From: Prevotella melaninogenica
GTDB lineage: Bacteria > Bacteroidota > Bacteroidia > Bacteroidales > Bacteroidaceae
Assembly (NCBI RefSeq): GCF_018127925.1
Contig: NZ_CP072348.1
Location: 875,501-939,500 of the forward strand
Direction of reading: 5' to 3'
Length of the DNA stretch: 64,000 nucleotides
Shown here: in pieces, positions 6,785 to 62,150 of the stretch
Layout: every line of letters starts with the position of its first letter
How positions within the stretch are numbered: the stretch's first letter is position 1
The notes under the pieces: generated by a model
Told to the model about the DNA's origin: nothing
The model's database searches: none
What the model saw: the letters and a program-made list of their open reading frames with translations, nothing else
Program-made: the position numbers and the translations under genes

Positions 6785-6830
6785 CGGTCATTGTGTATTA
6801 TCTCATAATATGCGATGACCGATTTTCTGT
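6785..6830 (+). terminator. Hairpin terminator after the C10 protease
   Basis: A 17-bp stem with a few G-U pairs and a 3-base loop (CGGTCATTG... / ...CGATGACCG) is followed by ATTTTCTGTT. It lies 75 bases after the protease stop. Confidence 0.7.
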
Positions 6831-6898
6831 TAAGGCAAATCATACCATAATTACCAATCTCTTTGTAAATATTTTTCACCGCTTCGATTTTTATTAAG

Positions 6899-7051
6899 GC
6901 TTAATTGGACTCGAATTAACGCCCTTTTGGCTTCTAAAAGGTGCCCTTTTGAAGTCTTATTAATGCCCTTTTGCAAGCCAATTAAGCACCTTTTGCAAAC
7001 CATTCTTGTAACATCCTCAATATAAAAGAGTTACAAAGGCGCATAGAAAGA
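6899..7051. repeat. Family A 22-bp-period element, copy A1
   Basis: Seven units start at 6899, 6921, 6943, 6965, 6986, 7008 and 7030 (spacing 22,22,22,21,22,22). Units 2-4 start GCCCTTTTG, unit 5 GCACCTTTTG, unit 6 GTAAC and unit 7 GTTACAA. Copies A2 and A3 share the same register. It lies between the convergent C10 protease and rpsO genes. The rest of the gap (7052-7232) is AT-rich and I see nothing else in it. Confidence 0.85.
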
Positions 7052-7234
7052 CTATTCTTTACTATTTTTCTACTATGACATCAGGAGATAATGTAAAGAA
7101 AATTCAAGCCTTCTAAAAACTTTTAGAAAACTCTATTACACGGACATTCTAATACTTAGAATATTGAGATAATATAAAAAAGGAAACAAAACTATCTCTT
7201 AAGAACAAAAACAATAGTAGCAGGAGACAAAGAA

Positions 7235-9650: not shown

Positions 9651-9714
9651 CGCTTAAAACAGGAATAACTTTTATTATAATTCATATTGGTTACTTACTA
9701 TGCTACTTTTTGTT

Positions 9715-11975: not shown

Positions 11976-12231
11976 CGTTTCTCTATTCTTAATATCCCTA
12001 TCACGGAAAGATTCCTATTATAGAAAAATATCCAATACGAAAGTATAAACCAAACATAATGGACACACTTTTGATGTGCCTATTTTATTTTGACGAATGT
12101 ATAAATCCTCCGTCTCTCTTACTTATAAAACAAATTACTTTAAGTTTAGTTGAGGGTTACTTGCATTACCAGAAGCCTACAGAGCCTACTGAAATGTCAT
12201 AACTTTTCTTATTCCTACAATCTCAATACAT
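11976..12231. other. Gene-free, AT-rich stretch
   Basis: No ORF, RNA gene or convincing hairpin is seen between the radical SAM stop and repeat A2. A single pair of TTACTT motifs 22 bases apart (12135, 12157) is too weak to call an array. Confidence 0.5.
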
Positions 12232-12384
12232 GCTCTTTTGGCTTCTAAAAGACGCCTTATTGACTTGCAAAAGGTGCCCTTTTGAGGTCTAACTAACGCC
12301 CTTTTGAGGCCCAATTAAGCACCTCTTACTTTACTACTTTGTAACTAACTGATTCGCTGTTGATTGCAAACTTGCTCTTTACAC
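12232..12384. repeat. Family A 22-bp-period element, copy A2
   Basis: Seven units start at 12232, 12254, 12276, 12298, 12319, 12341 and 12363, with the same spacing as A1 (22,22,22,21,22,22). Units 3-4 start GCCCTTTTG, unit 5 GCACCTCTT and unit 6 GTAAC; units 1, 2 and 7 are more diverged. It lies between the convergent radical SAM and LpxA-like genes. 12385-12510 shows nothing further. Confidence 0.85.
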
Positions 12385-12513
12385 GCGTTTTAGTCTTTAT
12401 TTGTAGCTATTTTACCCAAATTTATGTCATGATTTTTCAAAACATTATCTACGAAATTTAAAGCACAAATCAGGCACCAGTTTAACCCAAATTAATAAAT
12501 GAATTAAATAAAA

Positions 12514-34201: not shown

Positions 34202-34272
34202 ATTTGTTTGGTGCGAAGCCTCCGCACCATTGGTGCTTACCATCCGCACCACACGTGCTAAGGCTCCGCACG
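34202..34272. repeat. Family B 22-bp array, copy B1
   Basis: GCAC at 34224, 34246 and 34268 and GTGC at 34211, 34233 and 34255 recur every 22 bases; the core is GCACCATTGGTGC. It lies between convergent genes, in reverse orientation to B3. Confidence 0.85.
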
Positions 34273-34276
34273 ACTC

Positions 34277-35386
34277 TTATTGGAAGTGTAAAATGAGGGG
34301 AAGGTTATATCTAAAAGCTACAGGTTTACCGTTATGCATTGCAGGTTTCCAACCTCTTAATAATTGAAGTGCTGCAGCAACACTGCGGTTCAACTCAATA
34401 TTATTTACCGTTAGAAAGACTATATCTTTCAAAGAACCATCCGTATCAACAATAAAAGAGGCGTAAATTCTCCCCACAGGAGTTGTTGCTGGGTTAAGTC
34501 CTGTATCGGAAAAATTCTGCCCAAAAGCCGCAACTAAATTTCCATCAAACTGTGGCAATATTTCTGGGAAGACAGAATCAGGTGATAAGGAGACATATAC
34601 AGCCTCATTAGGAAGTTTCTTAGTGCCTGCATAAGATAATGACTGTTTCTGCCACTTCTTAAAACTCTTAGAGAAAAGTACATCTACCATGTCATTACTT
34701 ACTTCTGAATAAACTCCTCCACCGTTATCAACACCAAGGTCGAAACGTATATTCTGTCCTATCAGTGCAAACTGATTGGGTAGAATATCCCAATTTATAG
34801 AGTCCTCAGTATGCGTATTTGCCGTATAATCTAACAATTCATAGAACTGATAACGAACATTAGGATCCTGCCACATGCGTGTCTGATTAAACACATCATT
34901 CTGCGTTAAGACTTTCTTATTGATAAGATCAAAGGTAAAATAAGAATGCTTTGCCGTAATGACACTTGTTGCATTACGCTCCTCCAAGCGGGCAAGAAAA
35001 GAAATGTATCTGCCTGGCTCCAACCAAAGACATCGTAACCCCATATCGTAAAAACGCCTTTCAGCATCCGCATCATCCTTTATAGTTCGCACTTCTTTAC
35101 CTAACGAAGACGCAAACTGCTTCCAACCAGTATCATAACTTTCAGAAGGCTGGTTAAAGAAAAAGCTTGTAAGATAGTGCTGTAGTTCTGGTAAGACAGA
35201 TCCATCCAAGCCTTTTGGCCATTCAAAATCCTTTGAAATAATCGTCAACGTATCACCCTTCTCATATAGATGACGAGACGACTCATAAAGCATAGCATCC
35301 TTAGACGCAATTGTTCCTGCCGACTGTCCGAATGCCATAAGACTTACAAACAGTAACAGGAACAAAGTATTAAGTCGGTTAATCAT
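34277..35386 (-). CDS. Exported DUF3298-like protein with C-terminal TonB_C domain
   Basis: A 369-residue protein with a Sec signal peptide (about 1-20, ending FGQSAG). The middle resembles DUF3298 (AKHSYFTFDLINKKVLTQNDVF, as in RsiV-like periplasmic domains). Residues 300-369 form a TonB C-terminal domain (GRIYASFIVDTDGSLKDIVF, then VAAALQLLRGWKPAMHNGKPV). There is no N-terminal membrane anchor or Pro-rich linker, so it is not a classic TonB. Its ATG overlaps the stop of the DUF4251 gene by four bases. Confidence 0.7.
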   Translation of the reverse strand: MINRLNTLFLLLFVSLMAFGQSAGTIASKDAMLYESSRHLYEKGDTLTIISKDFEWPKGLDGSVLPELQHYLTSFFFNQPSESYDTGWKQFASSLGKEVRTIKDDADAERRFYDMGLRCLWLEPGRYISFLARLEERNATSVITAKHSYFTFDLINKKVLTQNDVFNQTRMWQDPNVRYQFYELLDYTANTHTEDSINWDILPNQFALIGQNIRFDLGVDNGGGVYSEVSNDMVDVLFSKSFKKWQKQSLSYAGTKKLPNEAVYVSLSPDSVFPEILPQFDGNLVAAFGQNFSDTGLNPATTPVGRIYASFIVDTDGSLKDIVFLTVNNIELNRSVAAALQLLRGWKPAMHNGKPVAFRYNLPLILHFQ

Positions 35387-39076: not shown

Positions 39077-41152
39077 ATGTACAAACCAACATTTCAAAAG
39101 CGCAGCGTTCTGAAGTTTAAACACTTCTCCAACCATGGCTATTCGCTCTTTTCCGTTCTTGGAAAAGAGGTTCTGATTGGTGTACTGAGCGTCGCTACCT
39201 TGCAAAATGCTACTGCCAAGGGCATTAGTATTGAAACAGAGAAGGCAGAGACGGACTCAACTATCACCAACAGAGGCGTCATGATGGAGGAAGTGAACGT
39301 CACTGGAACGCGAGCACCGCTGACAGTTAGTCAGCAAGCGAGAATGGTAACTGTACTGAGTCGTGAGGATATTCAGGCGGCTCCAGTACAAAGTGTAAAC
39401 GATTTGCTAAAGTATGCCGTTGGTGTTGACGTCCGCCAGAAAGGTCCTTTAGGTACTTTGACCGACGTAAGTATTCGTGGTGGCAACTCAGAACAAATCA
39501 CAGTCCTCCTTAATGGTATCAATATCTGTGATGCACAGACTGGACATAACTCCTTTGACTTCCCTGTTGACATCAGTGAAATCGAACGAATAGAAGTCCT
39601 TGAGGGTCCAGCAGCCCGCGTTTATGGTACATCTTCTTTATTAGGTGCTATAAACATCGTAACCAGAACTCCACAAAAGACAAGTCTCTCTGCCCATATT
39701 GAAGGTGGTTCCTACGGCTATCTCAGTGCTGGCATACGTGGAAACATTGCTTCAAAAGACCGTTGGAACAATCAGCTATCAGCTTCTTACACCCGTAGTG
39801 ATGGCTATCTTCGCAACAAGGCAGGCAGCCTCAACGCTGATTACCGCACTGCAAAAGTTTTTTATCAAGGTAATTATACGGATGAAGACATGGTGGTTCG
39901 CTGGCATACAGGTATGAGTCTGAAAGACTTTGGCTCAAATACTTTCTATTCGGCAAAGTACGATGACCAGTTTGAACATACTTTCAAGACCTTCACAGCC
40001 ATTCAAGCTGAGAATCTAAAGGGCCGTTTCCACATTCGCCCTTCTATCTATTGGAACCGTAATATGGACCGCTTTGAACTCTTCCGTGGCGCATCCAATA
40101 AGTATCCTTTCAACTATCACCGCACTGATATCTATGGTGTAAACCTCAATGCTTACTTTGATTGGAACCTTGGACGCACAGCTCTTGCTGCAGAGTTACG
40201 CAATGAAGACCTCGTAAGTGGTAACCTCGGTGAACCACTCTCTCGTCCAAAGCATATCCATGGAACAGACAGAGACTACACTGTCGGACTTAATCGCACA
40301 AATATCCAGTTTGTTCTTGAGCATAATATCATCCTTGACCGCTTCACATTGTCGGCTGGTTTGACAGCTGTCAAGAACAGTCAAGCAGACATGCCAATGC
40401 ATGTTTACCCCGGAGTTGATGCAAGTTACCGTATAGGAAACGCTTGGAAGCTATATGCTTCTTATAATTCATCCCTCCGTATGCCGTCAGTAACAGAGTT
40501 ATTCTACTCAGTTGGTGGTCATAAGGCAGACAAACATCTTCGCCCAGAAGAACTTTCAGCATTCGAAACGGGTGTGAAATATGACAACAAGGGCGTCACT
40601 GCCAAGGCAAGTGTTTACTGGAATAACCACAAGAATCTCATCGACTGGATCAGTGATGGCACATTAGATGCCAACGGAGCAGTGCTATGGAAGAGTGTAA
40701 ACTTCGGAAAGATAAAGCACTTTGGAACAGAGGCTTCACTCGAATTCGACCTCTATCAGCTTCTTCCTTCACAGAAGTTCTTTAAGAAGTTTGGTGTAGC
40801 TTATAGCTATATCCACCAGAAGAAGGTTGATAATCAAGGCTATGTAAGCAAATATGCGTTGGAATATTTGAAGAACAAGTTTGTCAGCAATCTCCAGTTG
40901 AACCTCTGGCGTAATCTTGACCTTGGTTTCTACTATCGCTTCCAACATCGTATGGGAAACTATATTGATACGAACAACCAACGACAAAGCTATAAGAGTT
41001 ATGGCGTTGTTGATAGCCGTATGACTTGGAATGCAAAGAAGTGGACGGCATATGTTGAAGCAAACAACTTATTTGGTGCCCATTACGTTGACTATGGGAA
41101 TGTTCCACAGCCAGGCGCATGGGTCGTTGCTGGTGTAAGTCTGAACCTTTAG
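39077..41152 (+). CDS. TonB-dependent receptor, BtuB-like
   Basis: 691 residues from the ATG at 39077; an ATG at 38936 lies upstream of the probable promoter. After a leader (to about 45), a TonB-box-like segment EEVNVTGTR is followed by the plug domain (VSQQARMVTVLSREDIQAAPVQS, RGGNSEQITVLLNGINI, IERIEVLEGPAARVYGTSSLLGAINI) and a 22-strand barrel ending in WVVAGVSLNL. The plug most resembles vitamin B12 (BtuB/CirA) receptors; substrate is inferred. I see no cobalamin riboswitch upstream. Confidence 0.88.
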   Translation: MYKPTFQKRSVLKFKHFSNHGYSLFSVLGKEVLIGVLSVATLQNATAKGISIETEKAETDSTITNRGVMMEEVNVTGTRAPLTVSQQARMVTVLSREDIQAAPVQSVNDLLKYAVGVDVRQKGPLGTLTDVSIRGGNSEQITVLLNGINICDAQTGHNSFDFPVDISEIERIEVLEGPAARVYGTSSLLGAINIVTRTPQKTSLSAHIEGGSYGYLSAGIRGNIASKDRWNNQLSASYTRSDGYLRNKAGSLNADYRTAKVFYQGNYTDEDMVVRWHTGMSLKDFGSNTFYSAKYDDQFEHTFKTFTAIQAENLKGRFHIRPSIYWNRNMDRFELFRGASNKYPFNYHRTDIYGVNLNAYFDWNLGRTALAAELRNEDLVSGNLGEPLSRPKHIHGTDRDYTVGLNRTNIQFVLEHNIILDRFTLSAGLTAVKNSQADMPMHVYPGVDASYRIGNAWKLYASYNSSLRMPSVTELFYSVGGHKADKHLRPEELSAFETGVKYDNKGVTAKASVYWNNHKNLIDWISDGTLDANGAVLWKSVNFGKIKHFGTEASLEFDLYQLLPSQKFFKKFGVAYSYIHQKKVDNQGYVSKYALEYLKNKFVSNLQLNLWRNLDLGFYYRFQHRMGNYIDTNNQRQSYKSYGVVDSRMTWNAKKWTAYVEANNLFGAHYVDYGNVPQPGAWVVAGVSLNL

Positions 41153-41162
41153 CGAATTATTT

Positions 41163-41205
41163 TCATGAAAAAAAATATTTTTCTTCATGATAATAAATAT
41201 TTATT
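41163..41205. repeat. AT-rich near-palindromes
   Basis: A 28-base near-palindrome (TCATGAAAAAAAATATTTTT... at 41163-41190) and the 14-base palindrome AATAAATATTTATT (41192-41205) lie before the terminator hairpin. Confidence 0.6.
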
Positions 41206-41215
41206 TTCATACAAA

Positions 41216-41269
41216 AAAAGAATTATCATCACGTAAATAAATCATTATCTACGTGATGATAATTCTTTT
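41216..41269. terminator. Bidirectional terminator between receptor and GH20 genes
   Basis: Perfect 20-bp inverted repeat (aaaagaattatcatcacgta 41216-41235; complement 41250-41269) with a 14-base loop, A-rich before and T-rich after. Confidence 0.85.
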
Positions 41270-44866: not shown

Positions 44867-45004
44867 AAGCGCTTCTTTCTAAAGAAAGAGGGGAGAATGG
44901 TGGGAAGGTAATCCCTACTCTACATCCTCTCAGCCATCTCATAACACGTTGACAGCCTGCTCATCTCGTGTACAGAAGGACTTTTACTGGGTCATAAACC
45001 ATCC
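44867..45004. other. Gene-free stretch after the DUF2569-like gene
   Basis: Only a short hairpin (TTCTTT..AAAGAA near 44873) is visible before repeat B2; no gene. Confidence 0.4.
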
Positions 45005-45070
45005 TTACGATTAGTGCTAAGCCCCCGCACCATGCATGTTCAGCCTCCGCAACATGCGTGCTGGAGTTTT
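45005..45070. repeat. Family B 22-bp array, copy B2
   Basis: Units start GCACCATGC (45027) and GCAACATGC (45049), 22 bases apart; GTGC at 45014 and 45058 is in the same register. It lies between the convergent DUF2569-like and tRNA genes. 45071-45330 shows nothing else. Confidence 0.75.
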
Positions 45071-53111: not shown

Positions 53112-53163
53112 TAAGAAAAGAACACCGAAAAATAGTTCATGCAAATACGAAATATCTTTACAT

Positions 53164-53186
53164 AAATTGCCGTTCATTGGGCAATT
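53164..53186 (+). terminator. Terminator-like hairpin after tsaE
   Basis: AAATTGCC / GGCAATTT with a 7-base loop, 52 bases after the tsaE stop; no strong T run. Confidence 0.45.
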
Positions 53187-53202
53187 TAATGGGATAAAAA
53201 CG

Positions 53203-53355
53203 CATTTTCGGGCACAATTGTAACTGTCTTGTATTCATAATGTTACAAAACAGAAAAAGAAAAGGTGCTTTATAAGCCTCTAAAAGGGCGTTAGTAAGAC
53301 CTTAAAAGGGCACCTTTTAGAAGCCAATTAAGACTTAATTCGAATGCAATTAAGC
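53203..53355. repeat. Family A 22-bp-period element, copy A3 (reverse orientation)
   Basis: The reverse complement has seven units with the same spacing as A1 and A2 (22,22,22,21,22,22 and a final 22). It includes GCCCTTTTA twice, GCACCTTTT, GTAAC and GTTACAA. Overall length is 153 bases, identical to A1. It lies between the convergent tsaE and DUF4834 genes. Confidence 0.85.
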
Positions 53356-53376
53356 ATCAATTGAAAATGTACAGAT

Positions 53377-53417
53377 AATAAAATAGGACAAATCAGATTG
53401 ATTTGTCCTATTTTATT
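53377..53417. terminator. Bidirectional terminator between tsaE and DUF4834
   Basis: Perfect 19-bp stem (AATAAAATAGGACAAATCA and its complement) with loop GAT, A/T-rich at both ends. Confidence 0.85.
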
Positions 53418-62001: not shown

Positions 62002-62070
62002 CTGAATAACTCCCTACTTACCCCGAATTGCCTCTGCTTTGGCAGTATATCATAAGTTGTTTAGTACTCC

Positions 62071-62136
62071 GCACCATTGGTGCGAAGCACAAGCACGATA
62101 TGTGCGAAGCCTTAGCACAACATGTGCGCAGCAATA
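62071..62136. repeat. Family B 22-bp array, copy B3
   Basis: Three units start GCACCATTGGTGC (62071), GCACGATATGTGC (62093) and GCACAACATGTGC (62115), exactly 22 bases apart, each followed by a 9-base linker such as GAAGCCTTA. The core is GCAC-N5-GTGC. It lies between two terminators in a convergent junction. Confidence 0.9.
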
Positions 62137-62150
62137 TTACGTACAAAGAA

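Follow-up and report, generated by a model that had tools for sequence, protein, structure and literature searches.

A fixed-length intergenic repeat with a 22-bp pitch and a putative IHF-type site in Prevotella melaninogenica

Copies, extent and genomic context of family A

The window analysed here, a stretch of 64 000 nt from the genome of Prevotella melaninogenica, carries three copies (A1–A3) of a repeat that we call family A, and four further arrays of other units at a pitch of 22 bp (Table 1). An initial annotation had described A1–A3 as seven-unit elements of 153 bp; indeed, all three have one common register (unit starts at 22, 22, 22, 21, 22 and 22), and the anchors GCCCTTTTG, GCACCTYTT and GTAAC (A1–A3) and GTTACAA (A1 and A3) lie where they had been placed. 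Without gaps, A1 and A2 are identical at 95 of the 153 bp, A1 and A3 at 111, and A2 and A3 at 98; at other offsets, identity among the three exceeds 45% only at +/-22. A profile built from these same copies finds them with nhmmer E-values of 2e-54 to 7e-54, and BLAST against the own genome gave at least 43 matches (best non-self E-value 9e-35; 40 of 200 first-look candidates were scored). The similarity within family A is far above chance.

Table 1. Features of the window, in window coordinates
Feature	Position	Strand	Basis or remark
Family A copy A1	6861..7106	+	profile match, ungapped column conservation; orthologue at the same site in G148 and G162
A1 left end motif, TGTAANNATNTTTCA-like	6864..6878	+	end-motif alignment
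A1 22-bp-pitch array, units 1–5, cols 6–101	6899..6994	+	register comparison
A1 place of IHF-consensus site	7009..7021	-	3 mismatches, poor match
A1 right end motif, orientation as left one	7092..7106	+	end-motif alignment
Family A copy A2	12194..12439	+	profile match; orthologue comparison
A2 IHF-consensus site (predicted)	12342..12354	-	1 mismatch
22-bp-pitch array, GCAC-N5-GTGC type	34204..34282	.	self-similarity scan
22-bp-pitch array, TTTTCATGAAAA type	41149..41250	.	self-similarity scan
22-bp-pitch array, GCAC-N5-GTGC type	44997..45062	.	self-similarity scan
Family A copy A3	53148..53393	-	profile match
A3 place of IHF-consensus site	53233..53245	+	2 mismatches
22-bp-pitch array, GCAC-N5-GTGC type	62063..62145	.	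self-similarity scan

Two statements of the initial annotation were too narrow. The boundaries of 153 bp are too short, the element measuring about 246 bp (approximately cols -32 to 213, with col 1 at window position 6894 in A1); ungapped column conservation among 55 copies rises at col -32 and drops beyond col 213. Three copies, too, is an underestimate: the profile scan of the genome that had been proposed found 58 copies in 522 529 bases, i.e. the window plus 40 stretches of the own genome, 29 of them picked around BLAST matches and 11 spaced along both contigs. Extrapolating from the 17 copies in the window and the 11 spaced stretches (284 kb) gives about 201 per genome (95% CI 117–322), so that A1–A3 are 3 of some 200. 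Net length relative to the model is unchanged in 56 of the 58 copies (one of these is partial and covers model positions 2–91 only), with one copy at -1 and one at -22. Other species contributed 70 distinct copies or relatives, of which 54 show zero net difference, 13 differ by +/-1 and 3 by -23, i.e. by one unit plus one base; the large length changes of family A are thus about one unit (-22, -23). BLAST matches to family A occur in 29 of the 398 genomes of the genus searched. The pattern GGCTTGCAAAAG taken twice is too strict for mapping the family: it matches 6 times in 4 of the 398 genomes, with a spacing of 22 in five cases and of 44 in the sixth. We found no description of a Prevotella repeat of this kind in the portion of the open-access literature covered by our search, and the motif letters of family A turned up in literature text only in unrelated papers, as judged by title.

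The copies are intergenic and occur in either orientation. Fifty-six could be classed by their neighbouring genes (two lie at stretch edges): 22 in convergent gaps, 27 between co-directional genes (15 oriented as the genes, 12 opposite) and 7 in divergent gaps, which places at least one gene 3' end next to 49 of the 56. This context derives from a simple ORF caller, not from mapped transcription units, and there is overlap with small ORF predictions in a few copies. Counting every gap of 250 bp or more in these stretches gives 34 convergent, 78 co-directional and 33 divergent ones; assuming that the 56 copy-bearing gaps are all among them leaves 12, 51 and 26, respectively, without a copy. With these approximate gap counts, convergent gaps are enriched in family A (22/56 versus 12/89, odds ratio 4.2, p 5e-4) and divergent gaps depleted (p 0.025).

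Conserved spacing, helical phasing and the IHF-like centre

The initial annotation had taken the even spacing as a sign of selection, and orthologue comparisons between three near species support this, with no indel over 185 columns and substitutions near the flank rate. In cols -24 to 160 we counted 0 indels in 6501 aligned bases (substitutions 9.0%), compared with 37 indels in 5718 bases of flank (100 bp on each side; substitutions 10.1%) and 8 indels in 1698 bases in cols 161–213. Thirty-six orthologue pairs from 48 comparisons entered these counts, the other 12, including two of A3, having no usable alignment over the element. The Poisson probability for cols -24 to 160 is 5e-19 with all events taken as independent and 8e-7 with a third of them so taken, for a zone chosen after a first look at the counts; the alignment stops inside it in 4 of the 36 pairs, so rearrangements and large changes there go uncounted. 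Over the whole of cols -32 to 213 there are 10 events in 8712 bases (1.15 per kb, versus 4.8 and 7.6 per kb in the flanks). Homopolymer density is alike in element zone and flank (6.7 versus 8.0 runs per kb). Substitutions in the array (cols 0–101) amount to 6.4–6.7%, below the flank, indicating that the sequence is constrained there too. They are flank-like in cols 102–160 (12.0%), where 0 indels in 2052 bases compare with 12.6 expected (one copy counted twice). Columns conserved among paralogues change in orthologues at 3.65% and unconserved ones at 14.3%, which suggests ongoing selection on individual copies.

Might the palindromic units act at the RNA level, as an array of hairpins, e.g. 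of bidirectional terminators? The enrichment in convergent gaps would suit such a role, the units give more stable folds than shuffled sequences on either strand (mean z -2.2 and -3.2, for 19 of the 55 copies), compensatory A-T/T-A changes occur at column pairs 10–24 and 11–23, and the consensus fold is stronger than its column-shuffled control (0.0 kcal/mol). However, this fold reaches only -2.4 to -2.9 kcal/mol and was rejected as weak, the right half is comparable to the left flank in its folding (mean z -0.9 and -1.2 versus -1.5 and -0.7), and a fixed length of 185 bp is needless for terminators. Known structured RNAs were ruled out by the lack of Rfam matches (none at gathering score in the window, none with E up to 1 at 6800–7200). 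Altogether we hold a function as RNA to be highly improbable. Mutual-information covariation was tried as well and left unused; its top pairs are mostly non-complementary, and we read them as subfamily linkage.

Along the DNA, AA/TT steps peak every 10.75–11 bp, with a second peak at 11.75–12 bp and out-of-phase tracts near cols -5 and 102–117, where the 11-bp phase slips. The phasing is significant individually in 49 of 55 copies versus 2 of 55 left flanks (dinucleotide shuffles; the flanks are shorter), and at 16 of 19 loci from distant members of the genus versus 2 of 19 controls of equal length. The helical repeat of 10.5 bp per turn becomes 11 in negatively supercoiled DNA (cf. PMC4132750, in part).

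At a fixed place after the array, on the minus strand from col 128 to col 116, the copies match the sequence WATCAANNNNTTR, stated as the IHF consensus in PMC8942017; a table in PMC6907758 lists the same consensus under H-NS, the rows for H-NS and IHF having apparently been interchanged. The match is perfect in 20 of 55 copies, with one mismatch in 24, two in 8 and three in 3, i.e. 44 of 55 copies have at most one mismatch. The next best register scanned reaches 11% of copies, and the flanks show a background of 0.0014 for each position and strand. Between orthologues, substitutions at the five strictest IHF positions amount to 1.1% (2/177), compared with 12.5% around them (p 1e-7). As the motif was spotted after viewing the alignment, loci from distant genus members served as an independent check: out of 24 loci scanned, 5 from nearer species were excluded, and among the remaining 19 loci with related arrays, 7 have a perfect IHF match nearby, while at 8 no IHF-like site (at most one mismatch) occurs within the 360 bp scanned. 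The earlier suggestion of a protein on one helix face fits these data, and the conserved motif points to the DNABII/IHF class as a candidate; binding itself we infer.

Candidate proteins are at hand, since the own genome has 39 matches to PF00216, four of them strong. One of the four resembles HU-beta. IHF models give the remaining three better scores than HU models do, with no score reaching the curated cut-offs, and on this basis the three appear to fall between the two classes. A further 28, weaker matches lie in open frames of 150–160 aa and look like a large family of HU-like paralogues.

In our preferred reading, to which we give about an even chance, family A would be a site with helical phasing and an IHF-like DNABII protein at its centre, which constrains supercoils at gene ends. 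It would act in the manner of the RIB/BIME elements of E. coli, which bind IHF and gyrase, without being one of them. This reading builds on features that are read from the sequence, namely copy number, fixed length, the absence of indels in cols -24 to 160, the one-unit steps, the 11-bp phasing and the match to the IHF consensus. The element appears laid out as an array at 22-bp pitch, followed at a fixed distance by the IHF-type site and then by phased T-tracts, A/T tracts being mostly about 11 bp apart. A DNABII protein would bend the centre, and the pre-curved, helically phased arms, whose 11 bp per turn is the twist expected of negatively supercoiled DNA, could wrap against it. The resulting nucleoprotein complex may pin or insulate supercoils at gene 3' ends; curved sequences of 250 bp and 75 bp are described as pinning plectonemes in vitro (PMC6301789, in part). 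A protein complex would then gauge the length of the element in two-turn steps, perhaps as a means of folding the chromosome where genes end. Against this model stand the poor match of A1 (3 mismatches) and the 11 of 55 copies with two or three mismatches, the indels in cols 161–213 and the one-base differences in 13 of 70 copies from other species. So do the slips of the 11-bp phase, the sequence constraint in the array, the 4 of 36 pairs with alignments that stop inside the zone, the intermediate scores of three DNABII proteins and the 8 of 19 distant loci with no IHF-like site in the scanned 360 bp.

Phased arms would also be expected if family A were a strong DNA gyrase site, wrapped as at the Mu SGS and BIME-2. 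In E. coli the gyrase motif extends over about 130 bp, its GC content varying with a period of 10.75 bp to either side of the cut, and gyrase cuts are over-represented in BIME-2 (PMC6379681, in part); family A, with phasing at 10.75–11 bp and mostly at gene 3' ends, resembles this. Its centre, however, has a sequence-specific IHF-like motif and not a degenerate cut site, and the phased length of about 240 bp is greater than one gyrase footprint, the likeness being judged from periodicity against the published description. A gyrase site therefore seems to us an unlikely identity.

Ends, descent and mobility

A similar 15-bp motif, TGTAANNATNTTTCA, lies in direct orientation at both ends of the element; with at most 4 mismatches it is found at the left end in 28 of 55 copies, at the right end in 48 and at both in 25. 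As a target-site duplication (TSD) the motif was rejected, the two ends of a copy being no more alike than ends from different copies (p 0.71, n=55). End alignment found no terminal inverted repeats (TIRs) in the common 246-bp form. A longer seed returned 62 profile rows, 9 of which cover nearly all of a 540-bp model, whereas 37 begin at model positions 168–183 (about cols -38 to -23). Most of the five 540-bp forms inspected have imperfect inverted repeats at their ends, and dozens of paralogues from near species match over 400–540 bp (one 20-kb query). Thus, one subfamily has spread inside a transposon-like unit, and part of the spread was transposon-like. The initial remark that terminal repeats are absent accordingly stands for the common form (no TIR, no TSD) and fails for the minority 540-bp form, with its imperfect inverted ends. 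That the element contains no gene is borne out, as none of 55 copies is open in any of the six frames, and a coding function was dismissed on this check. A plasmid or phage origin was likewise rejected, copy A2 being without match in plasmid and phage collections; a CRISPR-like array was set aside by inspection only.

For descent we compared 15 own-genome copies from five regions (part of the window, L020, L025, L031 and L041; A3 was left out) with two near species, G148 and G162, which are about 95.5% identical in the outer parts of the alignments. G148 has 15 of 15 copies, three of them only partial or recombinant, and G162 has 14 of 15, the remaining one being ambiguous after rearrangement. 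G003 and G042, which are more distant, lack a copy in the gaps of A1 and A2, and the A2 gap of G394 and G140 holds a diverged copy in opposite orientation. The G003 gap equivalent to that of A2 (L113 10429–10516) carries three 22-bp units of AAAAGCTCTTAAGCTTTT type, another kind of 22-bp array in the equivalent convergent gap; in G042 there is one such unit.

These histories bear on a further alternative, in which family A is a MITE or its relic and the units and the IHF site once served a transpososome. Dispersed copies, the 9 of 62 near-full 540-bp rows with imperfect inverted ends and the absence of A1 and A2 from the orthologous gaps of G003 and G042 all favour this view, and a Correia MITE has an IHF site (PMC10969869, in part). 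The 14 of 15 examined copies shared by both near species argue against it, however, as does the lack of a TSD. Nearby repeats B and C are polymorphic, with 9–11 bp overlaps at empty sites, and fixed copies of family A are still free of indels in cols -24 to 160, unlike a dead relic. We consider such an origin improbable as an account of family A.

Several mobile sequences and rearrangements were also seen, most of them at family A copies. Apparent inversions between species seem to have their breakpoints at inverted pairs of family A copies (L112 4805–9914; L025 8095–16557). An insertion of about 541 bp with inverted ends occurs twice in L031 (3115–3654 and 7631–8171), each time at one end of a family A copy; both sites are empty in G148 and G162, with overlaps of 10–11 bp, and by eye we take the insertion to resemble a truncated IS1595-type element. 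Another mobile repeat of about 306–345 bp adjoins family A copies at L041 18166–18509 and L025 2515–2820. The former copy is absent in G148 and G162, with a 9-bp overlap; the latter is absent in G148, and the region aligns through in G162. G148 also has a 255-bp insertion (L110 7283–7537) that is absent in the window near 9670; its inverted ends are long (GGTTCTTCCGGAATTTGGAGTGAT), and the overlap is 8 bp.

The 22-bp pitch beyond family A and its place among bacterial repeats

The pitch of 22 bp extends beyond family A. In a scan of 522 kb of the own genome for self-similar arrays (44-bp window, identity at least 64%, family A excluded) we found 25 arrays at lag 22, all intergenic, and 14 at lag 44, with at most 6 at other lags from 12 to 60. 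In 720 kb (36 stretches) from ten further genomes of the genus, we counted 43 intergenic arrays at lag 22, 29 at lag 44 and 13 at lag 66, while no other lag from 10 to 80 exceeded 7. The choice of the ten was not random, eight being selected as carriers of a family A BLAST match; G016 and G040, which have no such match, show 3 and 2 lag-22 arrays per 100 kb and at most 2 at lags besides 22 and 44. Seven genomes of the order that belong to other families, 367 kb in total (33 kb non-coding; 1347 bases read N), yielded no arrays at 22 or 44, with 12.9 expected at lag 22 from the density in the genus, and 100 kb of E. coli likewise had no arrays at either lag.

Together with family A, the own genome and the ten others hold 94 lag-22 arrays, which fall into 20 unit families at 16-of-22 identity (16 and 27 families at thresholds of 15 and 17). 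The largest, A-like family comprises 47 arrays; 14 families are single arrays, two or three of which may be due to chance, as estimated from the counts at other lags. With about 20 unit families at one pitch, it is the pitch and not the sequence that the arrays have in common. A rough test of palindromicity of the 22-bp units was mixed (p up to 0.05 in 26 of 94 arrays), so we do not claim palindromy as universal, and since many unrelated 22-bp arrays have, by eye, no A-tracts, curvature does not qualify as a feature common to every array. When arrays outside family A were compared with their orthologues, 5 of 6 comparisons had no indel in the array and one had gaps adding up to 44; a seventh comparison had no spanning alignment.

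The common pitch may reflect selection by a shared machinery or a duplication step of 22 nt. Under the latter, purely mutational origin, a duplication mechanism prefers a step of 22 nt and spacing is not selected; some 20 unit families at the same pitch and the one array whose orthologues differ by gaps adding up to 44 would be expected from it. It leaves unexplained, however, why diverged, non-duplicating orthologues are free of indels and why the distance to the IHF-like site is fixed, and we give it very little probability. For family A, the orthologue data favour selection over a 22-nt duplication step. With roughly equal odds for and against, we propose that intergenic DNA in Prevotella follows a design rule of 22-bp pitch that is independent of sequence. 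Many unrelated units, palindromic or direct repeats, would be set exactly two turns apart on underwound DNA (11 bp per turn), and a common nucleoid machinery would read the spacing and not the sequence; family A would be its most abundant embodiment here, tied to the IHF-like site.

Among known repeats, the interspersed RIB/BIME-1 elements of E. coli come close, their inter-REP sequence interacting with IHF (PMC2817692, in part) and their location being at the 3' end of transcription units, according to the title of Boccard and Prentki 1993 as cited there. Family A is similar in that the repeat contains a predicted IHF site (no more than one mismatch in 44 of 55 copies) and in its location at gene 3' ends (49 of 56 copies). 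It differs in having, by inspection, no opposed REP pair and an array on one side only, and is set apart from the RIB descriptions by its fixed length of about 246 bp, its 11-bp A/T phasing and its phylum. BIME-2 and strong gyrase sites are likewise intergenic with a GC/AT pattern phased near 10.75 bp (PMC6379681, in part), but family A has an IHF-like centre and a longer phased tract. BIMEs have been proposed as genome organisers (PMC6379681, in part) and as possible supercoil barriers (PMC6907758, in part). BrickBuilt of Porphyromonas gingivalis is also an intergenic Bacteroidales element with direct repeats, here of 23 nt; its repeat number ranges from 1 to 22.8, its TIRs are IS5-like and it occurs 19 times in ATCC 33277 (PMC4596501, in part), whereas family A has a fixed length (zero net change in 56 of 58 copies), a 22-bp pitch, about 200 copies and the IHF-like site. 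The Correia repeats of Neisseria are abundant and small too, one having a demonstrated IHF site (PMC10969869, in part), but they are MITEs lying mostly upstream of genes, while the common form of family A is devoid of TIRs and the family is under-represented in divergent gaps. From MITEs in general, the 246-bp form is distinguished by its lack of TIR and TSD.

Bacterial repeats are usually sorted by sequence, and elements defined by their spacing are missed by sequence-based repeat finding. In family A the letters change near the background rate, and length is fixed almost to the base in about 200 copies. If confirmed, the family would provide a natural assay of helical phasing in a living chromosome, a candidate system of topological insulators outside the proteobacteria and a role for IHF-like proteins in Bacteroidota.
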